A stretch of 37,102 bases of DNA from Azotosporobacter soli (GTDB lineage Bacteria; Bacillota; Negativicutes; SG130): the NCBI RefSeq assembly GCF_030542965.1, contig NZ_JAUAOA010000029.1, positions 1-37,102 of the forward strand. The letters are read 5' to 3'. This document shows, one piece after another, positions 13,818 to 34,672 of the stretch (positions are counted from its first letter, which is position 1; every line of letters begins with the position of its first letter). Made by a program: the position numbers and the translations under genes. Under the pieces are notes generated by a model. That model made no database searches. It worked only from the letters and a program-made list of their open reading frames with translations, and was not told where the DNA came from.

Positions 13818-14387
13818 TTAGAAACTTGTGTTCAGACCGACGCCGAGGCCCTTCCAGCTAAGATGATCCATGTCACCTTTGCCTTCATGATCCTTGTAGT
13901 TGACGTCCAGATTCAGGTTCGGGCTCAGTTTGACCAGTGCGCCAACCTGGAATTCATTCTCGTTGCTGGACGTTTGGAATGCCGCATAGCCATCGACATT
14001 TTTGCCAAGCTCAGTACGCGCCTTCAGGCCCCAAAGCATGCTGTCTTTGGAATAACTGCCAACCGAATGATGGCGATTACCGGCTACCAAGGAAAAGTTC
14101 TTGTCCAGTTTGTACTGTACAGTCAGATCGGTCGTTTTGATATCATTTCCCCAAGTGCTGACGTTTTCTGTTTCAAAGCCCAGCGCAAACTTATCGCTCA
14201 AACCGCCTTGAATGTAAAAATCATTACCGCTATGATTCGCATCCGCGCCGCCGACTTTCACATTATAGTTCGTATAGTTGTACCCGGCGTTAATCTTCCC
14301 CTGGCCCAACTCCACTGCCGGCGACGCCATGGCGACGCTCGCGCTCATCATAGCGACGGCTGCTGCTGCGACGATTTTCTTCATCAT
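13818..14387 (-). CDS. Small outer-membrane beta-barrel protein
   Basis: This 189-residue protein has a signal peptide (MKKIVAAAAVAMMSASVAMA, cut near 21) and then alternating amphipathic strands with aromatic girdle residues (AGYNYTNYNVKV, FYIQGGLSDKFALGFET, LTVQYKLDKNFSLVAGN). It ends GLGVGLNTSF, a terminal Phe as recognised by the BAM machinery. Eight to ten strands are likely. Such barrels show the cell is diderm. No ligand can be inferred. GGAGG lies about 10 bases upstream of ATG 14387, and a TATACT -10 is at 14443-14448. Confidence 0.85.
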   Translation of the reverse strand: MMKKIVAAAAVAMMSASVAMASPAVELGQGKINAGYNYTNYNVKVGGADANHSGNDFYIQGGLSDKFALGFETENVSTWGNDIKTTDLTVQYKLDKNFSLVAGNRHHSVGSYSKDSMLWGLKARTELGKNVDGYAAFQTSSNENEFQVGALVKLSPNLNLDVNYKDHEGKGDMDHLSWKGLGVGLNTSF

Positions 14388-15885: not shown

Positions 15886-15915
15886 TTGACGCCACACCTA
15901 ATCTTGTCATATATT
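15886..15915 (+). promoter_or_regulatory. Predicted porin promoter
   Basis: TTGACG (15886-15891) and TATATT (15910-15915) are 18 bases apart. A Fur-like palindrome begins 3 bases past the -10. The leader is about 130 bases. Confidence 0.7.
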
Positions 15916-15918
15916 AAA

Positions 15919-15933
15919 TGAGAACAATTCTCA
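15919..15933. promoter_or_regulatory. Fur-like box at the porin promoter
   Basis: TGAGAACAATTCTCA is an inverted repeat in the 7-1-7 form of Fur-family boxes (TGATAAT-N-ATTATCA); 5 of 7 bases match in each arm. It covers the expected transcription start. Confidence 0.65.
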
Positions 15934-16051
15934 CTGTTCTTTTTTAAATTTTATCATAAGGAGGAAATAAATTTAACTCTACCTGTCTGTTTTTTTTGCA
16001 AGCAGATGCGTTCGACACCGTGGACTATATTATGGCAAAAGGATGGCATAC

Positions 16052-16999
16052 ATGAAAAAAAGTATCGCACTTACATTGCTTGGTTTGACTTTTTCCGCTT
16101 TTCCCATTGCGCAGGCAGCGCCGCTAACACTGAACGGCGACGTATCCGTCAGTTATGAAAAAGATACGGCCGCAGACGCTGCCTCCTCCGGCTCACGTTA
16201 TACGCTGCGCCTTAAAGGCGAAAGCGAACTCGGCTCTGGCTGGTCGCTCTATGGCCGCGTCACTGCGCAATATGCAAACAATCCTTCTTTTGGCGACTAT
16301 AATCTCGCTGCGTACGGCGGCGAACAAAAATCAGTTTTTTCTTTCGATCAATTCGGCTTAATTCACAAGAACGAACAATTCGTCTATAAGATCGGACGCC
16401 AGGATGCGGCGGTCGGCAAGACGGCGCTGCTTTATAGCCGTGCAGACAGCAACATCGGAAAAAGGACGTTCGTCGACGGACTATCGCTTTCAGGTACGAC
16501 AGGAAAAACGGAAATAGCCGCCCTCTTGGCGCAAGAAGACAATGTCGGTGCTGATGATAATCGTGTCTACGCACTGCGCGGCGGTTATAACGCGACTGAC
16601 AAGCTGAACTTTGGCCTCACACTGGCCCGCTATCAGGACAAGGTGAACGAAAGCACCAATCACTGGGCGGTTGACGGCAGCTATACCTTCGGCAAGAGCA
16701 GTCTGACGGCGGAATATACAAAATCGAGCAGCGCGTCGGAGAACAAAGCCTTCGCACTGGTTTTCAACTACAATTTTGATGATAAGACGACACTTTCGCT
16801 TACCAAGTTCCGCGTGGAAAGCAACGGCGACATGGGCAAACAAAGCGACTTCGACAACAACAACAGCGGCATCTACTACGGCGTCGCACATAAATTGAAT
16901 AAAGCCGAGACGCTGGAGCTTGTCTATAAGGATCAAAAATCACTCAATGACGGACAGAAAAACAGCAAATTTGAAGCGACTTTGACGCACTCTTTTTAA
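16052..16999 (+). CDS. Outer-membrane porin-like beta-barrel, probably iron regulated
   Basis: The 315-residue precursor has a signal peptide ending AQA (cut near 22) and then about 290 residues of alternating strands (LTLNGDVSVSYEKD, YTLRLKGESELGSGWSLYGR, LTHSF at the end). FDQFGLIHKNEQFVYKIGRQD matches the first-strand/L3 region of general porins. It ends in Phe. No S-layer-homology domain is present, unlike the major Negativicutes porins. ATG 16052 has AAAGGA 8 bases upstream; ATG 16043 is too close to it. The Fur-like box suggests a role in iron or siderophore uptake, but a TonB box or plug is absent, so it is not a TonB receptor. Confidence 0.85.
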   Translation: MKKSIALTLLGLTFSAFPIAQAAPLTLNGDVSVSYEKDTAADAASSGSRYTLRLKGESELGSGWSLYGRVTAQYANNPSFGDYNLAAYGGEQKSVFSFDQFGLIHKNEQFVYKIGRQDAAVGKTALLYSRADSNIGKRTFVDGLSLSGTTGKTEIAALLAQEDNVGADDNRVYALRGGYNATDKLNFGLTLARYQDKVNESTNHWAVDGSYTFGKSSLTAEYTKSSSASENKAFALVFNYNFDDKTTLSLTKFRVESNGDMGKQSDFDNNNSGIYYGVAHKLNKAETLELVYKDQKSLNDGQKNSKFEATLTHSF

Positions 17000-17008
17000 C
17001 GCGACCAA

Positions 17009-17048
17009 CAGGAAGACAGATCGTAGACACGCTCTGTCTCCTTGTTTT
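17009..17048 (+). terminator. Terminator after the porin
   Basis: CAGGAAGACAGA pairs with TCTGTCTCCTTG with one mismatch and one G-U, followed by TTTT. Read-through to the DUF3793 gene is possible. Confidence 0.65.
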
Positions 17049-17102
17049 CCCATTGCCGTTTCTTTCAGCGGATGAAAAATCAATCTAAAAAGGAGGTCGC
17101 TT

Positions 17103-17717
17103 ATGCTCGATCCTTCCGTTTTCTCTTTTGCGAATTGGCTTGCGCTGCAACTCGCCCCGACGCTGCTCGGCAGCAAAAACGGCACACTGCTTTCCTTGCA
17201 AGACATTCCCGGACAGCCCTTGCTCAGCGAGTGGCGACAAAACGGCACCGCATTGTTGGCAAGCGGTGTTATCGCATATTTGCCGCTCAAATCGCTGCCA
17301 GGACGGGAAACTGTTTTGTTTTATCGCCCGGATCGTTTGCAGCGTCTCTTTCGCCAACCGCGCACACGCGAATTTCTTGCGCGCCGCGGTTATCCTGTTC
17401 ACCAGGATCTATCCGCCATGCTGCGTTATCTACAGCAGCGCTTCCAACGTTGCTGTCCGCATGAAATCGGCCTCTTTCTCGGCATTCCGCTCAAAGACGT
17501 GATCGGCTTCATCGAATCCCGCTGCCCGCTCGAAGATTGCGCGACGCCTTGGAAAGTCTTCGGTTGCCAGGAAACGTCACTGCGTCTTTGGCGACGCTTC
17601 ATCTCCGATCAGAACCAAATAGAGCAGTTGTTAAGCTATGGCCATTGTCCAAAATCCATCCTGTGTTCCGACTGTCCCTATCTGCCGCCTGCGCAACGCT
17701 TTGCCAGAACCAGTTAA
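17103..17717 (+). CDS. DUF3793 family protein
   Basis: This 204-residue protein has the DUF3793 pattern: FANWLALQLAPTLLGSKNGTLLSL at the start, LFYRPDRLQ in the middle, then the conserved HEIGLFLGIPLKDVIGFI and CATPWKVFG, and a Cys-rich end (HCPKSILCSDCPY). The function is unknown. In Clostridia and Negativicutes such genes often lie next to iron or flavodoxin genes, which fits here. ATG 17103 has AAAGGAGG 6 bases upstream. It is 23 bases from the next gene and likely co-transcribed with it. Confidence 0.85.
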   Translation: MLDPSVFSFANWLALQLAPTLLGSKNGTLLSLQDIPGQPLLSEWRQNGTALLASGVIAYLPLKSLPGRETVLFYRPDRLQRLFRQPRTREFLARRGYPVHQDLSAMLRYLQQRFQRCCPHEIGLFLGIPLKDVIGFIESRCPLEDCATPWKVFGCQETSLRLWRRFISDQNQIEQLLSYGHCPKSILCSDCPYLPPAQRFARTS

Positions 17718-17740
17718 TAAAGAAAAGAGGCTTCTTTGAT

Positions 17741-17920
17741 ATGTACAAGGAATTTCGCTGTCTTTGTTGCGGCAAGCTCCTGTTTAAAGGGCAGATTCAC
17801 TGCGTCGAGATCAAATGTCCGCGCTGCCATGCTTTGCAAAAACTTGAAGGCTGCGAAGCGCCCAAGAATCTGTTGCCGATCGCAACTTCTGCTGCCGCTT
17901 TGCATCACTCCGCCAATTGA
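17741..17920 (+). CDS. Com-like small zinc-finger protein
   Basis: The 59-residue protein has FRCLCCGKLLFKGQ followed by VEIKCPRCHALQKL. The spacing of two CxxC pairs and the IKCPRC motif match phage Mu Com, a zinc-finger protein that activates translation of mom by binding its mRNA. No mom-like modification gene is present. ATG 17741 has AAGAGG 10 bases upstream. Its position after DUF3793 suggests a post-transcriptional or metal-responsive role, as inference. Confidence 0.8.
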   Translation: MYKEFRCLCCGKLLFKGQIHCVEIKCPRCHALQKLEGCEAPKNLLPIATSAAALHHSAN

Positions 17921-17928
17921 GAGCACAA

Positions 17929-17991
17929 AAAAAACAGGCAAGACGGATGTAATAGGAACACTTCCGCTTACATCCGTCTTGCCTGTTTTTT
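17929..17991. terminator. Long bidirectional terminator
   Basis: Arms 17929-17952 and 17968-17991 are perfect 24-base complements (core CAGGCAAGACGGATG) around a 15-base loop, with A and T tracts at the outer ends. It separates the DUF3793-Com unit from the convergent HD-GYP gene. Confidence 0.92.
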
Positions 17992-18043
17992 CGCATTTGG
18001 GGCAGTCTGAAAAAAACATCGCTCGAGAAAAAAGAAAGCTCCA

Positions 18044-18733
18044 TCAAAAATATGCGCTCTTTTTGATACGCTGGATTAAATCTGCGCCCGCCGGTTTTTC
18101 CTCATCGCCCTTTTCGCACACTGTACTTTCCTTAGAGGATTCCAGCAGCAATTTTTCCGGCGCGCATTGCGCTAAAATAAGAAAAGCTTCCGCAACAAGC
18201 GGATCGAATTGTTTGCCGCTTTGCCTGCGAATCTCGCTAAACGCCCACTCCAACGCCAGTGCGTTTCGATACGGACGCGCACTGACCATCGCATCGAACG
18301 AATCGGCCACCGCGATGATGCGCGAACCGAGCGGAATGTCGTGTCCGCTCAGGCGATCCGGGTACCCTTTGCCGTCCCAGCGCTCATGATGATGCCGCAC
18401 CAATGGCGCGAGCGAAGCCAGGGCCGCTGTCTTCGCCAGGATTTCGCCGCCGATCACCGGATGTTGCTTTACGCTCTCCCATTCTTCTAGCGTCAGTTTG
18501 CCGGTTTTCAATAAGACCGCGTCCGGTACGCCGATTTTTCCGATGTCGTGCAGATGTCCGGCCAGATGGATGAGCTTGGTTTCTTCGTCTCCCAACACAA
18601 GCACCTGGGCCAGCGCATCGGCCAGGTGGCCGACGCGTACGGAATGACCGCGCGTATAACTGTTTTTCGCCTCCAGCAGCGCAGTCAGCACTTCGATCCA
18701 GTCATGTGTTTCCTTTACCATTTTCCGCCTCAT
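18044..18733 (-). CDS. HD-GYP domain protein, probable cyclic-di-GMP phosphodiesterase
   Basis: The 229-residue chain is almost only an HD-GYP domain: TRGHSVRVGHLA, GHLHDIGKIGVPD (HD at about 62-63), KQHPVIGGEIL, HHHERWDGKGYPDRLSG (GYP at about 123-125) and IIAVADSFDAM. All metal ligands appear present, so it should cleave cyclic di-GMP or a related dinucleotide. There is no receiver or sensor domain, so control may be transcriptional. ATG 18733 has GGAG 6-7 bases upstream, lying at the end of a possible small upstream gene. A strong promoter with a Fur-like box is about 220 bases upstream. Confidence 0.92.
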   Translation of the reverse strand: MRRKMVKETHDWIEVLTALLEAKNSYTRGHSVRVGHLADALAQVLVLGDEETKLIHLAGHLHDIGKIGVPDAVLLKTGKLTLEEWESVKQHPVIGGEILAKTAALASLAPLVRHHHERWDGKGYPDRLSGHDIPLGSRIIAVADSFDAMVSARPYRNALALEWAFSEIRRQSGKQFDPLVAEAFLILAQCAPEKLLLESSKESTVCEKGDEEKPAGADLIQRIKKSAYF

Positions 18734-18736
18734 TTC

Positions 18737-18838
18737 TTACTCCGCTTCGCTCAAGTTGTCTGCCTTTCCCTTTTCACAGGGCGCTACGCCCTGTCTTTCG
18801 CATTGTTTTGCTGCGCAAGAGCCGCGCTTTATTTTCAT
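18737..18838 (-). CDS. Candidate small ORF upstream of HD-GYP (33 residues)
   Basis: This frame starts at ATG 18838 with AAAGGGAGAG just upstream and stops 3 bases before the HD-GYP start. The peptide has three cysteines (GSCAAKQCERQGVAPCEK) and is basic then acidic. The HD-GYP ribosome site lies in its last codons, which favours coupling. The spacing of its own ribosome site is short, and part of the frame coincides with a hairpin (CAGGGCG-TAG-CGCCCTG), so it may be a structured leader instead. Confidence 0.35.
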   Translation of the reverse strand: MKIKRGSCAAKQCERQGVAPCEKGKADNLSEAE

Positions 18839-18933
18839 TCTCTCCCTTTGCTTTAGCCACGCAGCGCAATGGACAAACGCCGCCCTCTTCGCGCTGCTTG
18901 CGACAAAGATGACGGCGTTCCGGACGCTCTACA

Positions 18934-18948
18934 TGATAATCTTTCTCA
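18934..18948. promoter_or_regulatory. Fur-like box on the HD-GYP side
   Basis: TGATAATCTTTCTCA: one arm matches the 7-1-7 consensus fully, the other at 5 of 7. It starts 3 bases past the minus-strand -10, covering the start. Confidence 0.6.
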
Positions 18949-18951
18949 TTA

Positions 18952-18980
18952 AATATAATTCATTTCTTTTGCCATGTCAA
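18952..18980 (-). promoter_or_regulatory. Predicted promoter towards HD-GYP
   Basis: On the minus strand TTGACA (18975-18980) and TATATT (18952-18957) are 17 bases apart: a consensus -35 and a near-consensus -10. Confidence 0.75.
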
Positions 18981-19050
18981 ACCGTCCTTTGTGCGTCTTT
19001 CCCTTATCAATCTCTTTATTACTGATCTCATCACTTTTTAAATTTAAAGA

Positions 19051-19079
19051 TTGACAGCGTTTCTTTTCTGTCATATCAT
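19051..19079 (+). promoter_or_regulatory. Predicted promoter of the DUF2325 unit
   Basis: TTGACA (19051-19056) and TATCAT (19074-19079) are 17 bases apart. Confidence 0.8.
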
Positions 19080-19088
19080 AAAGACAGT

Positions 19089-19103
19089 TGATAATCATTT
19101 TCA
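19089..19103. promoter_or_regulatory. Strong Fur box at the DUF2325 promoter
   Basis: TGATAATCATTTTCA matches the 7-1-7 Fur consensus TGATAAT-N-ATTATCA at all but one defined position. It lies 9 bases past the -10, at the expected start. Confidence 0.82.
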
Positions 19104-19133
19104 TTTAAATCCGAAAGAGAGGTGCTTTTATCC

Positions 19134-19454
19134 ATGTCGATCATGATCGTCGGCGGCGATTCTCTTGGCGCGATAAACAAAGAGCTTCTTTCTTTAGGCG
19201 CGGAGGAAATTTTGCATGTCGACGGCCGAAAGAGCGGTAAGAACGCACGGCTTTGCATTCCGGAACGCATCGCCTTAGTGCTTGTCTTTACCGATTACGT
19301 CAACCACAATACGGCTAAGCTGGTCAAGCGACTAAGCAAGCTCAACGGTGTTTCCTATCTGTTTGCCAAACGTTCGTGGACTTCTTTGGAAGGGCATGGC
19401 GTACGTCGTTATTTTCCTGTTGCCGCGCCAGAGTCAAAAGGAGGTTCTTTATGA
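19134..19454 (+). CDS. DUF2325 domain protein
   Basis: This 106-residue protein is a single DUF2325 domain: IMIVGGDSLGAINKELLSLG, then LHVDGRK, IALVLVFTDYVNHNTAKLVKR and a Ser-rich end. The fold is probably Rossmann-like; the function is unknown, and no Cys cluster is visible. ATG 19134 has GAGAGG 11 bases upstream; an in-frame GTG at 19122 overlaps that site. The strong Fur box indicates iron repression. The stop overlaps the next ATG (ATGA). Confidence 0.85.
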   Translation: MSIMIVGGDSLGAINKELLSLGAEEILHVDGRKSGKNARLCIPERIALVLVFTDYVNHNTAKLVKRLSKLNGVSYLFAKRSWTSLEGHGVRRYFPVAAPESKGGSL

Positions 19455-19696
19455 GTCTTATGCTTGCAGCCGATTGTCACGGTATCAGCGTCACCGCGTG
19501 CAATGTCACCTGCGCTGCCCAAGTCGAATATTTGTCGCATCAGATCCGAGAGTGTATCCGCCAGGGTTATCAACGGATCATGCTCTTTTTAACCGGTGAG
19601 AACAATCATGCCCCTGGCCTCTATGCCATGCTGCGTGAACTGAAAAGCCAGCTGAACGCCCGCCTGAAGATAGTAGCCACTCGAGAAAGCCTTTGA
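19451..19696 (+). CDS. 81-residue hypothetical protein coupled to DUF2325
   Basis: I do not recognise this protein. It starts MSLMLAADCHGISVTACNVT and has a probable beta-alpha-beta core (YLSHQIRECIRQGYQRIMLFL, then LKSQLNARLKIVAT). It may be a partner of the DUF2325 protein: its ATG overlaps the preceding stop, and GGAGG lies 6 bases upstream. Three cysteines are in the first 37 residues. A terminator follows directly. Confidence 0.75.
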   Translation: MSLMLAADCHGISVTACNVTCAAQVEYLSHQIRECIRQGYQRIMLFLTGENNHAPGLYAMLRELKSQLNARLKIVATRESL

Positions 19697-19697
19697 G

Positions 19698-19739
19698 CTT
19701 CGAATTTGCCTTATATGAAGGCAGTTTCGAAGTTTTTTT
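19698..19739 (+). terminator. Terminator after the DUF2325 pair
   Basis: CTTCGAA pairs with TTCGAAG around an inner GCCTT/AAGGC stem, followed by seven T. Confidence 0.88.
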
Positions 19740-19820
19740 GCGCCCTTCCAAAGAGCCCCTTATCCTCTATCCCACTTTGCCGCTTAGAGCGGATATTATA
19801 TAGGAAAGAAGGTTTTAAAG

Positions 19821-20240
19821 ATGAAAACAATCGCCGTTATTTACTGGAGCGGGACAGGCAACACGCAGAAAATGGCCGAAGAAATCGCAACCGCTGCGCA
19901 GGTCAGCGCGACGCCGGTCGAAATCGCCGATCCGGCAAGCGTTGCCAGTGCGGACGTCATTGCGCTCGGCTGCCCTTCGATGGGCGATGAAGTACTGGAG
20001 GAATCGCTGATGGAACCATTCATCTGCTCGTTGACTCCGCTCATTTCCGGCAAGTCGCTCTTTCTTTTCGGCTCCTACGGCTGGGGCAGCGGCGCTTGGA
20101 TGTCGGCTTGGGAAGAACGCATGCAAGAAGCCGGCGCAAGACTGCTGCGCGAAAGTCTGATCTGCCATGAAACTCCCGATGACGCTGCGCTTAAAGATTG
20201 CCGCCGAGCAGGTGAGGCTCTCTTGGCAGCGCTCGGCTGA
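19821..20240 (+). CDS. Flavodoxin
   Basis: Flavodoxin is an FMN electron carrier that replaces ferredoxin when iron is short. The 139-residue length is that of short-chain flavodoxins. The phosphate-binding loop is WSGTGNTQKMA (about 9-19), the 60s loop is GCPSMGDEVLEE, and the 90s loop is GSYGWGSGAWM. AAGAAGG precedes ATG 19821. No Fur box is seen directly upstream and a terminator lies between it and the DUF2325 pair, so its iron control is inferred from read-through or context only. Confidence 0.93.
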   Translation: MKTIAVIYWSGTGNTQKMAEEIATAAQVSATPVEIADPASVASADVIALGCPSMGDEVLEESLMEPFICSLTPLISGKSLFLFGSYGWGSGAWMSAWEERMQEAGARLLRESLICHETPDDAALKDCRRAGEALLAALG

Positions 20241-20267: not shown

Positions 20268-20312
20268 AAAGAAAAAAAACTGCAACGGATAAGCCGTGCA
20301 GTTTTTTTCTTT
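20268..20312. terminator. Bidirectional terminator between flavodoxin and hemB
   Basis: AAAAAACTGCA and TGCAGTTTTTT flank a 12-base loop, with T tracts in both directions; it serves both convergent genes. Confidence 0.9.
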
Positions 20313-20322
20313 GTCTTCTTTG

Positions 20323-21303
20323 TTATTTTCCGGCCAGCCAGGCGGCGGCATCGAGTGCATGATAGCTGATGATGATATCCGCACCGGCGCGTTTCATGCC
20401 GAGCAACGACTCGAGCACCATGCGTTCTTCTTCGATCCAGCCTTTAGCGGCAGCGGCTTTGATCATCGCATATTCACCGCTGACATTGTACGCTGCGACC
20501 GGCAGATCGAAGCTGTCGCGTACTTGGCGAATAATGTCCATGTATGCCAGCGCCGGTTTGACCATTACGATATCGGCGCCCTCTTCGATGTCAAGCGCCA
20601 CTTCTCTAAGCGCTTCGCGGCTGTTGGCCGGGTCCATTTGATACGTCTTGCGATCGCCGAACTGCGGCGCAGAACCGGCCGCTTCGCGGAACGGACCGTA
20701 ATAGGCCGAAGCATACTTCGCAGCATACGACATAATTGAAATGTTTTGATGACCATTTGCATCAAGCACTGCGCGAATGGCGGCAACGCGTCCATCCATC
20801 ATATCGGACGGCGCGACCATGTCCGCGCCGGCATCCGCCTGACTGAGAGCAACCTTGGCCAAGAGTTCGAGCGTACTGTCGTTATCCACATAACCGCTTT
20901 CGGTCAGCAAGCCGCAATGGCCATGGCTGGTATATTCGCAAAGGCAGACATCACCCATCACGACCAAATCCGGCAGCGCCCGCTTAATTGCGGTTATCGA
21001 CTGCTGCACCGGCTGTTTGCCGTCCCAGGCGCTTGAGCCTTGCGCATCTTTGTATTCCGGCAAACCGAAGAGCATGATACCCGGTACGCCAAGTTCCTGC
21101 GCCTTGCGCGCCTCTTCGACCGCCATGTCCGCCGAGAGGTGAAACACACCCGGCAGGCTGGAAATTTCTTTACGGATGCCGCTTCCCGGCACCACGAACA
21201 ACGGATAGACGAAATCGTCCGCCCGCAGGATATTTTCTCGCACTAAGGACCGTACCCCCGCCGAAATACGCAGGCGACGCGGCCGCACTTTATTTAGCAG
21301 CAT
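20323..21303 (-). CDS. hemB: Porphobilinogen synthase (delta-aminolevulinate dehydratase)
   Basis: HemB condenses two 5-aminolevulinates to porphobilinogen. In this 326-residue chain the zinc cysteines are in [14 protein letters not shown] (about 118-131), so it is a zinc-type enzyme. The Schiff-base lysines are in SYAAKYAS (about 196) and MVKPALAY (about 249). ATG 21303 has AAGGAG 8 bases upstream; the earlier in-frame GTG 21312 overlaps the preceding stop and this ribosome site. It is the last gene of the tetrapyrrole operon. Confidence 0.97.
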
Positions 21304-21308
21304 ACTTG

Positions 21309-22829
21309 TCACTCCTTGCTTTTTTCTAGGATGGCTTTTGCCAAGCCGTCAATTGTATATTCCGCCGCCATGACATCCGGTTCGATTTTATGTTTCAGGC
21401 AGGTTTCCGCCGTGATCGGGCCGATACAGGCCACCAGCGTCTGCGCGACCAATTTTGCACCGCCTTCTCCCAGTAAATCCAGTAAATTCGTTACTGTCGA
21501 GGAACTGGTGAAGGTGACGATGTCAATTTCTCCAGCAGCTAGCTGTTCGGCAAGCGCCGCGCCGTCGGCTTCGCCCTGTACCGTACGGTAGGCATGCGCC
21601 ACGGTGACATGCATGCCAAGTTTCGTCAACTGCTGCGGCAGCACATCGCGCGCGACTGCAGCCCGTGGTATTAAAATCCGCTGCCCGGCATTCAGCTGCG
21701 GTTCGAGTGCTTCGACCACCGCCTCCGCACGAAACTCCATCGGGATGATATCCGCACGCAGTCCCTGCTGCTGTAAGCGCGCCGCAGTCGAAACGCCAAT
21801 GGCCGCCAGTTTGGCTCCTGCCAGCGCCCGGCTGTCCAGCTTCTTGCTCCAAAGCCGGTCAAAGAAACGGTCCACGCCGTTTGGACTGGTGAAGACCAGC
21901 CATTGATAACTGGACAATTCGCTGATCGCGTCATCGAGTGCGCGATATTCGTCTTCCGGCGGCAGAATCTTGATCGCTGGCGCTTCGATGCATTGCGCAC
22001 CGAGCGATTCCAGTTCGCTCGTCAGCGCACTGGCCTGTTCCCGCGCACGGGTCACCAGTACGCGTTTGCCGAAGAGTGGTTTGTTGTCAAACCAAGCCAA
22101 CTCGTCGCGCAGGCGAACGACATCGCCGACCAGGAAAATGGCCGGTGGTTTGATGCCCGCTTTAGCCACGGCTTCTGCCGCTTCGGCAACCGTAGTGACC
22201 AACACGCGCTGTTCCGGCTTTGTACCCCAGCGAATGACCGCCGCAGGCGTGTCGCCGCATCGTCCGTTTTCCATCAATTTGCCGGTGATATGCGGCAGAT
22301 TTTCCACACCCATCAAAAAGACCAGCGTATCGACCGCCTTGGCCAGATGGTTCCACTGGATCGTAGACTCCGGTTTCGTCGGGTCTTCATGCCCGGTCAC
22401 GACGGCAAATGATGCGGCAATGCCGCGGTGCGTCACCGGAATACCGGCATAGGCCGGTACTGCGATTGCCGACGTCACGCCAGGCACGATTTCAAAGGCG
22501 ATGCCGTTTTCCTTCAGCGTCAGCGCTTCTTCGCCGCCGCGGCCAAAAACGAACGGGTCGCCGCCTTTGAGACGCAGCACGCGCTTGCCCTCTTGCGCCT
22601 TATCCACTAACAATTGGTTAATGTCTTCCTGACGCATCGTGTGGTCGCTCGAAGCCTTGCCGACATAAATCAGTTCCACATCCGGTCGCGCTTCGGCCAG
22701 CAGGCGGCTGTCCGCCAAGCGGTCATATACGATGGTGTCGGCCAGGCGAATGTATTGCTGTCCTTTCAGCGTCATCAGCTGATAGTCGCCGGGTCCGGCG
22801 CCGACTAGATATACCATTCCGTGTTTCAT
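21309..22829 (-). CDS. cobA-hemD: Fused uroporphyrinogen-III C-methyltransferase / uroporphyrinogen-III synthase
   Basis: This 506-residue protein joins two enzymes. Residues 1 to about 240 are SUMT (CobA): [48 protein letters not shown] and the late AIFLVGDVV. From about 250 it is Hem[47 protein letters not shown] and [13 protein letters not shown]. It cyclises hydroxymethylbilane to uroporphyrinogen III and methylates it to precorrin-2. The fusion is common in Firmicutes. Its start overlaps the hemC stop (ATGA). Confidence 0.96.
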
Positions 22830-23758
22830 GCCTGTCCCTCCATGATTTCCTGTAAAATCTCACGCGCGCCGTCATCAAGCATCGCGTCGGCCAGTTGCAG
22901 TCCGAGTTCATTGCCTTTATCGGCCGGGCCGCATACGCTGCGTCGTAGCCCGCGTTTTCCGTCAAGCGAATATACCGCCGCTTCCAAGCGCAGTTCATTC
23001 TTTGTCACCGTAGCATACACGCCGAGCGGCACCTGGCAGCCGCCTTCCACGCGATGCAGATAGGCCCGTTCCGCCGCCGCGCCCTGATGCGTCGGCAAAT
23101 GATCTAAAAAAGCAATCCGCTCTCTGCTTTCGCTGTCGTCAGCGCGGCATTCAATTGCCAGCGCGCCTTGTCCGACTGCAGGCAGACAAATTTCCGGCGG
23201 CAGTTCTTCACGGATTCTCTCCTGCCAGCCCAGTCGTTTTAATCCGGCGGCCGCGAGAAGGATCGCATCAAACTGTCCCTCGTCCAGTTTGCGCAGCCGC
23301 GTATCGAGGTTGCCGCGCAGATCGAGAATTGTCAGATCCGGCCGGTGGTGCAGGAGCTGCGCTTTACGCCGCAGGCTCGACGTTCCCACCTTCGCGCCGG
23401 ACGGCAATTCCGCCAGACTGTTGTATTTCACCGACACCAATGCATCAGCCGCATCCGCGCGCTCGGTAATCGCGCCCAAGATCAGGCCCTCCGGCAATTG
23501 CGTCGGCATATCTTTCAGGCTATGCACGGCCAAATCGATTTCGCCTGCCAGCATCGCCTGTTCCAGTTCTTTCGTGAATAAACCCTTGCCGCCGATCTTA
23601 GCCAGCGGAACATCGAGGATTTTGTCTCCGGTCGTCACCATGTGACGGATTTCAACGTTCAAATCCGGATATTCGCTGCGCAATGCGTCGGCAATATGAT
23701 GCGCCTGCCATAAGGCAAGCTTACTTGCTCGCGTACCGATAACAACTGTTTTTTTCAC
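22826..23758 (-). CDS. hemC: Hydroxymethylbilane synthase (porphobilinogen deaminase)
   Basis: HemC polymerises four porphobilinogens. In this 310-residue chain the motifs are IGTRASKLALWQA, GKGLFTKELEQAML, HSLKDMPTQLPEGL (with catalytic Asp82) and VEGGCQVPLG, whose Cys241 carries the dipyrromethane cofactor. It overlaps hemA by 38 bases and the cobA-hemD start by 4, so the set is tightly coupled. Confidence 0.97.
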   Translation of the reverse strand: MKKTVVIGTRASKLALWQAHHIADALRSEYPDLNVEIRHMVTTGDKILDVPLAKIGGKGLFTKELEQAMLAGEIDLAVHSLKDMPTQLPEGLILGAITERADAADALVSVKYNSLAELPSGAKVGTSSLRRKAQLLHHRPDLTILDLRGNLDTRLRKLDEGQFDAILLAAAGLKRLGWQERIREELPPEICLPAVGQGALAIECRADDSESRERIAFLDHLPTHQGAAAERAYLHRVEGGCQVPLGVYATVTKNELRLEAAVYSLDGKRGLRRSVCGPADKGNELGLQLADAMLDDGAREILQEIMEGQA

Positions 23759-25037
23759 GATGTCTGCCCTCTCCTATTGCTTCCAGTTTAAACAAGTCCC
23801 GAATCGCTTCCAGATAAAAGTCTTCGTCATCGCTGCAGGCCGCTTCATTGATCCGCACCATCGGATCCCTGAGCAACTTGCGTACGATCATCTTCGAAAG
23901 ATTTTCCATCGCCTTGCGCTCTTCCGGCGCAATATCCGGCACCTTGACCAGCGCGCGCTTCAGCTCGCGCTGACGGATCGCCTCCGCCTTGTCGGTCAGG
24001 CGCACCATCACCGGACGCAGCGTCAGATAACGGAAACGTTCCACCAAGGTTTCCAATTCTTCCTGTAGGATGATCTCGGCAAGTTTCGCTTCCTGTTCGC
24101 GCAGTCGCAAGTTCGATTCGACGACCGCTTCGAGCGCATCGATATTATAAAGTTTGACGCCGGCGATCGCCGCCGCTTCCGGTTCCACGTCACGCGGTAC
24201 CGCGATATCGATGATGATCAGCGGGCGATCCGGACGCGTCGGCATGATGTGCGCCAAATCCCAAGCACGGATGATGTAATGCGGTGCACCGGTCGAAGTG
24301 ATGATGATGTCGGCATCGACCGCTTTTTTCATAAAGCCTTCGAACGGTACCGCCACGCCCTGGAATCGTTCCGCTAGCTGCTGCGCCCGTTCATATTTGC
24401 GGTTAGAAACAAAGACCGCTTTCACGCCGTTTTCCACCAGGTGGCGCGCCGTCAGTTCGCCCATTTGTCCCGCACCAAGCAATAAGACATTCGACGAAGA
24501 CAGATCACCGAATACTTTTTTCGCCAGTTCCACAGCGGCGTAGCTGACCGAAACCGCGCTATGCGCGATGCGCGTCTCCGCCCGCACCCGTTTTCCCACT
24601 GCGATCGCCCGATTAAAGAGCGTGTTCAAGACCGCATCGGTTGTGCCGACATCGCGCGCAATCGAGTACGCCTTCTTGACCTGGCTCAGGATCTGTCCTT
24701 CGCCAATGATCAAAGAATCCAGGCTGGCCGACACGCGAAAGAGATGGCTGATGCAATCGTCTTCCAGATGGCAAAAGAAATCATTTTCGAGATCGGGCGC
24801 CGCCTGCGCCATACGCGTAAGCAACTGTTCCATCGCCGCCAGTCCCGCCTCGGCTTCATCGACCACTGCATACATTTCCGTCCGGTTACAGGTGCACAAT
24901 ATGACGCATTCTTGAATTTCATCGTATTCATGAACTCGGCTTAATGCCTGTTTGATTTGGTCTTCCGAAAACGTAAAGCATTCCCGTACGTCTACGGATG
25001 CCGTCTTATGATTGAGTCCCAGCGCTACTAATTGCAT
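23721..25037 (-). CDS. hemA: Glutamyl-tRNA reductase
   Basis: HemA reduces glutamyl-tRNA to glutamate-1-semialdehyde, the first C5-pathway step. The 438-residue chain starts MQLVALGLNHKTASVDVRE. The catalytic Cys50 lies in LCTCNRTEMY, followed by HLFRVSASLDSLIIGEGQIL, the NADPH motif LLLGAGQMGELTARHL and the C-terminal dimerisation helices. ATG 25037 is chosen by family N terminus; GGAGG is 12 bases upstream. The longer in-frame extension overlaps the upstream gene and is rejected. No hemL is in the window. Confidence 0.95.
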   Translation of the reverse strand: MQLVALGLNHKTASVDVRECFTFSEDQIKQALSRVHEYDEIQECVILCTCNRTEMYAVVDEAEAGLAAMEQLLTRMAQAAPDLENDFFCHLEDDCISHLFRVSASLDSLIIGEGQILSQVKKAYSIARDVGTTDAVLNTLFNRAIAVGKRVRAETRIAHSAVSVSYAAVELAKKVFGDLSSSNVLLLGAGQMGELTARHLVENGVKAVFVSNRKYERAQQLAERFQGVAVPFEGFMKKAVDADIIITSTGAPHYIIRAWDLAHIMPTRPDRPLIIIDIAVPRDVEPEAAAIAGVKLYNIDALEAVVESNLRLREQEAKLAEIILQEELETLVERFRYLTLRPVMVRLTDKAEAIRQRELKRALVKVPDIAPEERKAMENLSKMIVRKLLRDPMVRINEAACSDDEDFYLEAIRDLFKLEAIGEGRHREKNSCYRYASK

Positions 25038-25650
25038 TTCGGATCTTTGCCTCCGCTTCTTTAAACTTTCCTGCCCGAAGCAATTCGAGCACCGTTTCAT
25101 CCATCGCCTGCCGCCAGATGCGTTGCCGCTCCGCCGAAACATGCAAAGTCGACTTCAACTCGGCGCGTAAGCGGCCGATCAGTTCCAGATACTGTCCGTA
25201 TTCTTCCCCATAGCGTTCAGCAAGTTCATGCCGAATTTGACGCGCCACAGCCGGGCTCTTGCCGCCGGTCGAAACCGTGAACAGCAAGTCACCGCGCCGG
25301 ACCTGTCCGGGCACGGTAAAATCGCATAATTCAGGGGCGTCGGCCACATTCACCAGCGCCCCTGCCTGTTTGCCGTCGATAGCCGCCTCCCTGTTTACAT
25401 CGCAATGATCGGTGGCGCAAAACAACAAGAAAAACCCGGCGCCGTCCCCCGGCTGCCAGGTCCGATTCCAATGCCGCACCGTCCCGGCTGCAGCCAGACG
25501 CTGAAGCGTTTCCGTCAGACAAGGACTAATCATCGTAACTAGCGCACCGGCTTTTACTGCCGCAACCGCTTTTCGCTCTGCCACGCCGCCGCCGCCGATA
25601 ACGGCAACCGTTCGGCCGGCAAGATTCAGATTCATCGGATAAACAGTCAC
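25006..25650 (-). CDS. Precorrin-2 dehydrogenase / sirohydrochlorin ferrochelatase-type protein
   Basis: The 214-residue chain resembles the Met8p/CysG N-terminal domain. It oxidises precorrin-2 to sirohydrochlorin with NAD+ and may insert iron. The Rossmann motif is VAVIGGGGVAERKAVAAVKAG. DFTVPGQVRRGDLLFTVST and GGKSPAVARQIRHEL are the family core, with the catalytic Asp in NVADAPELCDF. GTG 25650 (MTVYPMNLNLAG) is preferred: TGAGGA lies 10 bases upstream and the N terminus fits the family. It overlaps hemA and leads the tetrapyrrole operon. Confidence 0.92.
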   Translation of the reverse strand: MTVYPMNLNLAGRTVAVIGGGGVAERKAVAAVKAGALVTMISPCLTETLQRLAAAGTVRHWNRTWQPGDGAGFFLLFCATDHCDVNREAAIDGKQAGALVNVADAPELCDFTVPGQVRRGDLLFTVSTGGKSPAVARQIRHELAERYGEEYGQYLELIGRLRAELKSTLHVSAERQRIWRQAMDETVLELLRAGKFKEAEAKIRNAISSAGTQS

Positions 25651-32809: not shown

Positions 32810-33925
32810 TTATAGCCGTACTCCGACAACGGTGGCATCATCATGACCCTGTCCATCAACCACAAGACTCTCCATCAATTGCATGCCGTGCGCATAGTCA
32901 TTCAACTGCAGCATATGTTCCTCCTGCAATAAATCCAATAATCCGTCACTGCAAAAGAAAAAGCAGTCTCCTCTTCGGCACTCCAGCTCTTCTTCTTCAT
33001 ATTTCATATCCGGCAAGATGCCAAGAAAAAGCCCTGGCACTCTTACCGTGATCGTTTCGCCGCCATGCAGGGCGATAAAATGATTGATGCCTGCCGATAC
33101 ATAACGTAAAATGCCCTGTTTCACATCCACTTCAAATGCTAACATCGCTGCAAAAGATCCGTCATTCAAGTACGGCGTCAAATTCCGGTTCAATTCCTCC
33201 ACCCGCTTCGCCAGAGGTTCTTTGCTTTGCAGCACTTGACGCCCGAGAACCATCAGCGCAGACGTCTGCAACGCCGCCCCCAGGCCATGCCCCATGACGT
33301 CTGCCACATAGCCGACGCAGCGTTTTTCTTTTGCACACCACAGATAATCATAAATATCGCCGCTCACTAGATTCAGCGGTTCATAGATCGACTGCACAGT
33401 GATTTCCTCGGCGTTCACCTTTTTCGGCAAAAGCGCACGTTGAATCTTTCCTGCCAGCATCAGATCCTCGCGCAATTTTTGATCGGCCTTTCGCAGCACA
33501 GCCGCCGCCTCTTCCTGCAGCGTGAGATCTTCTTTCAACGTTAAAAAATGGCTGATTTCATTGTTCTCATCGTATAGCGGCGACACGACTACATTCTCCC
33601 AAAAGAGCTCTCCCGTCTTTTTGCGGTGGTGCAGTTTGCCGCGCCAGACCCCGCCGCTGCGAATCGTCGTCAGCATAGCCTGATAAAACTCCGGCAGCTG
33701 TGCACCCGATTTTAAAAACGGAATCTTCTTGCCCAGCACTTCTTCCTTTGCATAGCCGGACGATCGACAAAACTCCTGATTGACAAAGACGATGCAGTCT
33801 CTGCGGTCGGTAATCATTACCCCGCTTAGATGCTGCTCCATCGCGCGCGCCAGGAGCGTCATCCTTTCATCAGGCTCCGCAAAAAAAATGTTTCGCTGAC
33901 TCGCTTTTCCTTCCTGCATCGTCAT
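32810..33925 (-). CDS. PAS-domain PP2C/SpoIIE-type serine phosphatase
   Basis: The 371-residue protein has a PAS domain (about 25-135; GVMITDRRDCIVFVNQEFCRSSGY, then WRGKLHHRKKTGELFWENV), a coiled linker (about 135-165) and a SpoIIE-type PP2C domain (LVSGDIYDY, VADVMGHGLGAALQ, FFFCSDGLLD, GHDDATVV). The metal Asps are present. It should dephosphorylate the STAS protein in response to a PAS ligand or redox signal. It overlaps the STAS gene by 4 bases; ATG 33919 is an alternative start with better ribosome spacing. Confidence 0.93.
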   Translation of the reverse strand: MTMQEGKASQRNIFFAEPDERMTLLARAMEQHLSGVMITDRRDCIVFVNQEFCRSSGYAKEEVLGKKIPFLKSGAQLPEFYQAMLTTIRSGGVWRGKLHHRKKTGELFWENVVVSPLYDENNEISHFLTLKEDLTLQEEAAAVLRKADQKLREDLMLAGKIQRALLPKKVNAEEITVQSIYEPLNLVSGDIYDYLWCAKEKRCVGYVADVMGHGLGAALQTSALMVLGRQVLQSKEPLAKRVEELNRNLTPYLNDGSFAAMLAFEVDVKQGILRYVSAGINHFIALHGGETITVRVPGLFLGILPDMKYEEEELECRRGDCFFFCSDGLLDLLQEEHMLQLNDYAHGMQLMESLVVDGQGHDDATVVGVRL

Positions 33926-34227
33926 CCTTCAATTTCAAAGACACTGGTCAGTCTGGTAAGTTCAAATAATTCCCGTACCAAACCACGCAAGTCGCGAATG
34001 ACAACCTTGCCGTTTTTTTGCAATGCGCGCTTTTGAATCGCCACTAAGACCCCGAGGCCCGAACTGTCAATATAGTCGACGCTGCCCAGATTGATGACAA
34101 AATTAACATGACCCTGCTCAATATATTCCAATAATTGTTCGCGTATCGCGGTCGCTTCTTCGACGTAAATACTGCCGTTCAATTGCACGATGACTTGGTT
34201 GCCAATGACTTCAATATGACTCGTCAT
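33922..34227 (-). CDS. STAS-domain anti-sigma factor antagonist
   Basis: The 101-residue STAS protein has the phosphorylatable serine motif YIDSSGLGVLVAI (Ser55/Ser56). In the unphosphorylated state it should bind the kinase encoded next door. GGAGG lies 8 bases upstream of ATG 34227. The sigma factor or other effector target is not in the window. Confidence 0.93.
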   Translation of the reverse strand: MTSHIEVIGNQVIVQLNGSIYVEEATAIREQLLEYIEQGHVNFVINLGSVDYIDSSGLGVLVAIQKRALQKNGKVVIRDLRGLVRELFELTRLTSVFEIEG

Positions 34228-34231
34228 GCTT

Positions 34232-34672
34232 TCAGCCTCCTATTTTTACAGCCGCTTCATCAATTCTCTTCATCAAAAGCACTTCATTGCCCGCCTGGTT
34301 ATAGCGCATATAATCCGTCAGCATCTGCATAATATGCAAGCCGCGGCCCGATTCCGCCATAATGCCGTCTCGAACCGTTTCTCCAACGCCATGGCCGTTT
34401 CCTGCTTTGCCAGGATGAGCAAACCCGCCGCCGCCGTCCGCAACCCGCACAATCAGGCGACGTCCGGCAATCACATCCATCTTGACGACGACCTGCGTAT
34501 GGCGTTGCTCGCAGCCGCCATGTAAAAGCGCATTGTTAACCGCTTCATTCAGCGCGACTTCCATTGCGCCGCTGTCGAGCACCACCTTCCGCAAGACTTC
34601 ATATAAACAATGCCTCACTAGACGATATCCATCATAATCACGAAATGCCACTTCTAATAAATGGACTTTCAT
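34232..34672 (-). CDS. RsbW/SpoIIAB-like ATP-binding anti-sigma kinase
   Basis: The 146-residue GHKL ATPase has the N box (VALNEAVNNALLHG, Glu43/Asn47), the G1 box (VADGGGGF) and the G2 box (ESGRGLHIMQML). It phosphorylates the STAS partner and binds a target when free. The start ATG 34672 has GGCGGTGA upstream. It is first in the kinase-STAS-phosphatase module, separated by 4 bases. Confidence 0.92.
   Translation of the reverse strand: MKVHLLEVAFRDYDGYRLVRHCLYEVLRKVVLDSGAMEVALNEAVNNALLHGGCEQRHTQVVVKMDVIAGRRLIVRVADGGGGFAHPGKAGNGHGVGETVRDGIMAESGRGLHIMQMLTDYMRYNQAGNEVLLMKRIDEAAVKIGG

Follow-up and report, generated by a model that had tools for sequence, protein, structure and literature searches.

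Why genes for a porin-like protein, a protein of family DUF3793, a Com-like zinc ribbon, a predicted cyclic di-GMP (c-di-GMP) phosphodiesterase of the HD-GYP type, a DUF2325 protein, an 81-residue protein and a flavodoxin should lie together behind three promoters within 3.2 kb is the question raised by positions 15,886 to 20,240 of contig NZ_JAUAOA010000029.1 (C29) of Azotosporobacter soli. The window referred to below is the whole stretch of 37,102 nucleotides (nt) that was analysed, within a genome of 3.77 Mb in 39 contigs. A first-pass annotation, made from the letters, had proposed an iron-starvation programme linking uptake, electron transfer, RNA-level control and c-di-GMP. Our analysis indicates, with a probability of roughly 0.85, that these three operons form an island of the Fur regulon, that is, a Fur-repressed low-iron programme that would join outer-membrane permeability, replacement of ferredoxin by flavodoxin and c-di-GMP turnover.

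Results

Three promoters with Fur-type operators

The island comprises three transcription units (Table 1): P1 reads the genes for the porin, DUF3793 and the zinc ribbon in that order, P2 reads the HD-GYP gene from the minus strand, and P3 reads those for DUF2325, the 81-residue protein and flavodoxin. With sigma-70-like scores of 11/12 (P2 and P3) and 10/12 (P1), these were the top or tied-top sites among the 16 found by the promoter scan in 8 kb, P1 being tied by one site within the downstream hemB gene; the good -35 and -10 elements first read at 15886, 18980 (minus strand) and 19051 are thereby confirmed.

Each promoter carries a TGA...TCA palindrome of the 7-1-7 type that begins 3 nt (P1 and P2) or 9 nt (P3) downstream of the -10 element, close to the start as the first-pass annotation had it, and, since the boxes consequently cover the start region, a repressor seated on them would be expected to block initiation. 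Their half-sites match at 6/7 (P1 and P3) and 5/7 positions (P2). In a genome-wide scan with patterns, TGANAANNATTNTCA matched only seven places in the 3.77 Mb, three of which lie within this 3.2 kb, and the remaining strict matches were mostly within genes or at gene starts (L001, L003 and L004); a looser pattern allowing three mismatches gave 278 matches per strand and was uninformative. Shuffling each intergenic region 1000 times with its dinucleotides preserved gave a best site as good as the real one 31 times for the first region (11/14) and never for the second (13/14).

The stricter variant TGAGANNNNNTCTCA has exactly two matches genome-wide, one at P1 and the other at the feo promoter (operator TGAGAATGAATCTCA), a link between P1 and ferrous-iron uptake that needs no outside consensus. 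The feo operon, with the order DtxR-like/feoA/feoA/feoB, is the only one in which FeoB is matched strongly, at 220 bits, the second-best FeoB_N score being 58 bits. It begins with a DtxR-family iron repressor gene and bears Fur-type boxes (G000:C6, L105 12328-12771), so that feo may answer to two metalloregulators. The genome encodes Fur (C5:21462; best NCBIfam model Fur, 153 bits, below its cut-off of 220), PerR, whose score exceeds the curated cut-off, and one more member of the Fur family. Elsewhere, a ferritin gene and a divergent 131-amino-acid (aa) gene have a common intergenic box, TGATAATAATTATCC, of the Fur or PerR type (G000:C9:70974-70988, L008).

Linkage of the island families to feo genes

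Neighbourhoods were compared at 40 DUF3793 loci from the host's own class, to which all 60 related genomes belong, and in a wide set made of the best 80 of at least 589 DUF3793 places that a single scan found in a collection of genomes at species level. Profiles made from the proteins of the window and of feo served to type the neighbours. A flavodoxin, a Feo protein or DUF2325 was found within 6 kb of DUF3793 at 36 of the 40 class loci and 62 of the 80 wide-set loci, and a flavodoxin within 400 bp at 24 and 50, respectively. The comparison of DUF3793, DUF2325 and flavodoxin neighbourhoods that the first-pass annotation had suggested revealed a recurrent linkage to Fur boxes and to feoA/feoB, with island genes lying next to that of the iron importer FeoB in dozens of related genomes. 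Loci L098-L101, from one genus, hold in a single run the zinc ribbon, DUF3793, HD-GYP, FeoA, FeoB, a GGDEF protein and a porin orthologous to that of the window (E about 1e-105). DUF3793, FeoA, FeoB, flavodoxin, GGDEF and HD-GYP stand together at L092; a STAS-like protein, flavodoxin and DUF3793 lie beside FeoB, GGDEF, HD-GYP and DUF2325 at L090, L096 and L108; and genome G053, which lacks DUF3793, has GGDEF, HD-GYP, DUF2325, a FeoB-associated Cys-rich protein and a porin in a row. The P3 operon of the window is repeated at a second locus of G010 (L222: box, DUF2325, flavodoxin). Beyond the class, FeoB, a DtxR/FeoA fusion, DUF3793 and HD-GYP occur together in Geobacter argillaceus (L165), and two Clostridium species (L119, L122) have DUF3793, flavodoxin, DUF3793, FeoA, FeoA, FeoB and DUF2325. 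Within the class, the named loci that share the island's arrangement are those of Pelosinus fermentans (L110, with the order feoA-feoA-feoB-DUF2325-DUF3793), Anaerovibrio (L127) and Selenomonas (L175). In relatives, then, the same genes stand in Fur-box operons with feoA/feoB, and the window island is a rearranged version of a gene set linked to feo.

Boxes were scored as matches out of 14, with at least 12/14 counted as a box in the start region, and first-in-operon genes of the island families were compared with all other first genes of the same loci. In the related genomes a box preceded 37 of 76 island-family genes versus 19 of 384 others (Fisher 8e-20; shuffled expectation 0.3%), and in the wide set 25 of 132 versus 16 of 795 (1e-12), these and the later Fisher P values being optimistic because species of a single genus do not count as independent. 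The difference is nevertheless large, and many families show it.

A stand-alone HD-GYP protein as a predicted Fur target

The HD-GYP protein has no sensor or receiver domain, keeps the metal and signature motifs (HDIGK, HHER, GKGYP) intact, and is predicted from these to be a c-di-GMP phosphodiesterase. It resembles PmGH (PDB 4mcw/4mdz/4me4), a metal-dependent HD-GYP phosphodiesterase (E = 3e-40), in its core HD, HHE and GYP motifs, and differs from it in having no extra domain and in that the Glu of the PmGH DPETQNH motif aligns with a Tyr. Searching the 60 genomes showed that stand-alone relatives of about 200-250 aa form a group apart from the many multidomain paralogues. A Fur box of at least 12/14 lay before one of the genes in 16 of 27 stand-alone HD-GYP operons versus 1 of 22 control HD-GYP operons from the same genomes (Fisher 5e-5). 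In addition, three further species of one genus have TGAAAACAATTCTCA or TGAAAATAATTCTCA (11-12/14) before the GGDEF partner, and nearly all remaining stand-alone relatives adjoin Feo genes.

In many relatives the HD-GYP gene is preceded by a gene for a two-helix membrane GGDEF protein, and 7 of the 11 feo-linked GGDEF genes listed, some of these loci overlapping, combine a GGEE signature with an RxxD inhibitory site. An alignment-based search of the present genome returned GGDEF-domain matches only and no full-length orthologue of this feo-type cyclase; here, therefore, low iron should induce the phosphodiesterase alone and lower c-di-GMP. The HD-GYP gene has a long leader, in which the Rfam scan found no riboswitch, as it gave only 5S rRNA and a terminator hairpin, the latter being a spurious mir-3926 match (17930-17990); no other Rfam family was matched in the island.

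Products of P1 and P3

The earlier family calls for DUF3793, the Com-like zinc finger, HD-GYP, DUF2325 and flavodoxin were borne out by Pfam matches (Table 1). The porin matched no Pfam or NCBIfam model, but roughly half of the 60 related genomes encode an orthologue. Two of these have perfect boxes (L194, TGATAATCATTATCA; L195, TGATAATGATTATCA), and those at L201 and L098 lie in feo operons, which porin orthologues can end. A second small outer-membrane beta-barrel gene lies just upstream of the island (window 13818-14387, minus strand) and has no strict-type box.

DUF3793 is present in 45 of the 60 related genomes. Its AlphaFold model is confident (predicted local distance difference test score, pLDDT, 90.6), and the alignment defines an invariant core of Y97, P119, E121, G123, L126, P129, D132, W150 and G180. 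No solved structure related in sequence was found, and none of the Foldseek matches had an E value under 0.05. The best VIA match, 2guk (Z 6.7, root-mean-square deviation 3.4, 106 aligned), gave no function, since that of 2guk is itself unknown. The family also appears in an ANME-2c archaeal metagenome-assembled genome, in Omnitrophota, in Fibrobacter and in Spirochaetes (L151, L111, L147, L163), a spread that suggests transfer among anaerobes or contamination of assembled genomes. A relative of the zinc ribbon lies directly before DUF3793 in the feo operon of L098-L101, and among the loci typed the two were together only in this genome and in that one genus.

Among the P3 products, DUF2325 belongs to a Fur-linked subgroup. 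The family as a whole was rejected as an iron marker, many paralogues having no boxes and standing beside other genes; paralogues without Fur boxes (G000:C16:21938; L216, L220-L229) adjoin nitrogenase-like or sulfur amino acid genes, and the family seems to be split by metal or cofactor context. The 81-residue protein, which the first-pass annotation had left unnamed, is STAS-like by sequence comparison and modelling. The window protein itself has no Pfam STAS match; it shares 17-23% identity with relatives recognised as STAS domains, the one at L096 matching STAS_2 with 31.0 bits against a cut-off of 29.2. The modelled order is strand-strand-helix-strand-helix-strand (pLDDT 80), and the top Foldseek matches are anti-sigma-factor antagonists (probability about 1.0, TMq up to 0.72, E above 0.01). 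In the alignment the phosphorylated serine of the SpoIIAA type was not evident in the protein or its relatives, and classical partner switching is therefore unlikely. The flavodoxin, of the short-chain type, keeps the N-terminal SGTGNT loop for the phosphate of flavin mononucleotide. Repression of flavodoxin by Fur is a classic arrangement.

Further along the window, a heme biosynthesis run (hemB, a cobA/hemD fusion, hemC and hemA; 20323-25142, minus strand) converges on the flavodoxin operon; a Fur box at its own promoter was sought through the whole-genome patterns only. A partner-switching module (32813-34672, minus strand) holds in a row genes for a PAS plus SpoIIE-like phosphatase, a STAS antagonist and an RsbW/SpoIIAB-like kinase, and Rfam placed a 5S rRNA near the contig end (36761-36877, minus strand).

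Table 1. Features of the island, with positions counted from the first letter of the window.
Feature	Position	Strand	Length	Details
Promoter P1	15886..15915	+		-35 TTGACG 15886-15891, 18-nt spacer, -10 TATATT 15910-15915; promoter scan
Fur-type operator of P1	15919..15933	+		TGAGAACAATTCTCA
Outer-membrane porin-like protein	16052..16999	+	315 aa	Signal peptide MKKSIALTLLGLTFSAFPIAQA
DUF3793 (PF12672)	17103..17717	+	204 aa	Pfam 117.9 bits, cut-off 25.1
Com-like zinc ribbon (PF10122)	17741..17920	+	59 aa	Four CxxC cysteines; Pfam 26.9 bits, cut-off 22.9
Bidirectional terminator	17927..17991			Perfect 18-bp inverted repeat with A and T runs, common to the porin operon and the convergent HD-GYP gene; sequence
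Stand-alone HD-GYP phosphodiesterase (predicted)	18044..18733	-	229 aa	HD_5/HD-GYP 139 bits
Fur-type operator of P2	18934..18948	-		TGAGAAAGATTATCA
Promoter P2	18952..18980	-		-35 TTGACA 18980-18975, 17-nt spacer, -10 TATATT 18957-18952; promoter scan
Promoter P3	19051..19079	+		-35 TTGACA 19051-19056, 17-nt spacer, -10 TATCAT 19074-19079; promoter scan
Fur-type operator of P3	19089..19103	+		TGATAATCATTTTCA; 13/14 to classic consensus
DUF2325 (PF10087), Fur-linked subgroup	19134..19454	+	106 aa	Pfam 46.3 bits, cut-off 33.6
STAS-like protein	19451..19696	+	81 aa	Overlaps the DUF2325 stop
Short-chain flavodoxin	19821..20240	+	139 aa	Pfam Flavodoxin_1 52.3 bits, over cut-off
Terminator hairpin	20272..20306			A and T runs, between the flavodoxin operon and convergent hemB; sequence

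Discussion

Taken as a Fur regulon island, the locus would work as follows. With sufficient ferrous iron, Fe(II)-Fur would bind the start-site palindromes of P1, P2 and P3 and block transcription, as it would, judging from operator sequence and position, at the only feoAB operon of the genome. A fall in iron would lift the repression. The P1 porin might then pass ferrous iron or its complexes across the outer membrane to FeoB, and the same transcript would yield DUF3793 and the small zinc ribbon. P3 would yield DUF2325, the STAS-like protein and flavodoxin, the last replacing ferredoxin, and the most likely partners of DUF3793 would be flavodoxin itself or the enzymes obliged to change over to it. 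From P2 would come the sensor-less HD-GYP protein, whose activity would be set mainly by the amount made; by degrading c-di-GMP it would lower the c-di-GMP level in low iron and favour leaving the surface. Most relatives pair it with a membrane diguanylate cyclase, which is missing from this genome. Several proteins of unknown function and the c-di-GMP-destroying enzyme thus very probably form one low-iron response. The uptake, electron-transfer and c-di-GMP parts of the iron-starvation programme first proposed are strongly supported by comparative genomics, through the operator common with feo, the feo linkage, the conserved boxes and the boxes specific to the HD-GYP orthologues; the RNA-level part is not.

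Some observations weigh against this reading. The genome has about 34 GGDEF-domain matches, and one HD-GYP protein may therefore not move the global c-di-GMP pool. Some loci, especially in Lachnospiraceae and Ruminococcaceae, pair DUF3793 with flavodoxin and show no recognisable Fur box, so that Fur control is not universal. The non-independence of genomes within a genus, which makes the P values optimistic, counts on the same side.

The promoters might also be iron-controlled while the HD-GYP and DUF genes are mere neighbours of the flavodoxin and porin genes, with no joint function. The three operons are indeed separate transcripts, and HD-GYP and GGDEF genes are very common in the class. 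We nevertheless consider this unlikely, given that the families re-assort in differing orders across many families and yet keep their link to Feo and Fur boxes, and that the boxes stand before stand-alone HD-GYP orthologues and not before paralogues.

A further alternative holds that DUF3793 and the zinc ribbon constitute an RNA-binding branch that represses iron-rich proteins post-transcriptionally, which is the RNA-level control of the first-pass annotation. Com is a translational regulator in phage Mu. That proposal draws on the resemblance of the 59-aa zinc ribbon to Com, for which it passes the cut-off, and on a weak likeness of the DUF3793 N-terminus to R3H, KhpB and IF3 domains (Z about 3-5). 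These fold matches, however, are at a level that the tool itself calls common, the spurious hairpin is the only Rfam match in the island, and the constant partner of DUF3793 is flavodoxin, the zinc ribbon joining it only here and in one genus; such a branch is quite improbable. Binding of the boxes by PerR (peroxide) or another Fur paralogue, which would make the island an oxidative-stress response, is very improbable: PerR and a third Fur-family protein are encoded, PerR and Fur boxes are alike and the ferritin gene has a box, yet the island boxes begin with TGA and end with TCA as Fur-type boxes do, PerR boxes beginning with TTA, the P1 operator recurs only at feoAB, relatives carry island genes within feo operons, and the linked families include no gene for a catalase, rubrerythrin or peroxidase.

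For enzymes of c-di-GMP metabolism, flavodoxin and porins, Fur control has precedents elsewhere. In Desulfovibrio and Geobacter, likewise anaerobes, Rodionov et al. (2004; PMC545781) predicted Fur boxes before flavodoxin (fld), feoAB, porin-like genes, the HD-domain gene hdd and the GGDEF gene gdp. In those genomes the genes do not lie together, the portion of that paper drawn on here mentions neither DUF3793 nor DUF2325, and hdd and gdp are likened to the present HD-GYP and GGDEF genes by domain. Clostridioides difficile fldX is strongly induced in low iron and has a Fur box, and feo is Fur-controlled in the regulon described for C. difficile and Clostridium acetobutylicum (PMC6311696); these organisms differ in being Gram-positive and having no porin, and the part of that source consulted names neither DUF3793, DUF2325 nor this HD-GYP protein. 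Fur also acts directly on c-di-GMP metabolism genes in Yersinia pestis, where it represses the cyclase gene hmsT (PMC3528687), and in Vibrio cholerae, where it acts on vieSAB and cdgD (PMC7641913). In those systems Fur represses cyclase genes and its loss raises c-di-GMP, whereas the predicted Fur target in the window is a stand-alone phosphodiesterase, to which relatives often add a cyclase, inside feo operons. In the openly licensed papers searched we found no description of the feo-linked combination in Negativicutes, of a link of DUF3793 or the DUF2325 subgroup to iron, or of a stand-alone HD-GYP protein as a conserved Fur target in the class.

A wider proposal, possible but offered tentatively, is that the feo-linked set (GGDEF, HD-GYP, DUF2325, STAS-like protein, DUF3793 and flavodoxin) serves anaerobes as a system of its own for electron transfer and for signalling from iron to c-di-GMP. 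Fur would set the ratio of paired cyclase and phosphodiesterase, and DUF3793 would represent a new class of partner for flavodoxin, through which metabolism that depends on ferredoxin could continue without iron. Almost nothing has been published on DUF3793 or the Fur-linked DUF2325, although the former is found among anaerobes of the Clostridia, Negativicutes, Geobacter, Spirochaetes and Fibrobacter; their ties to flavodoxin, FeoB and Fur boxes give low iron as the condition under which to seek their function. The orthologue-specific box on a sensor-less HD-GYP gene predicts, moreover, that iron sets c-di-GMP, and hence attachment or motility, in Negativicutes, and that it does so by way of a phosphodiesterase and not, as in Yersinia, by way of cyclases only.

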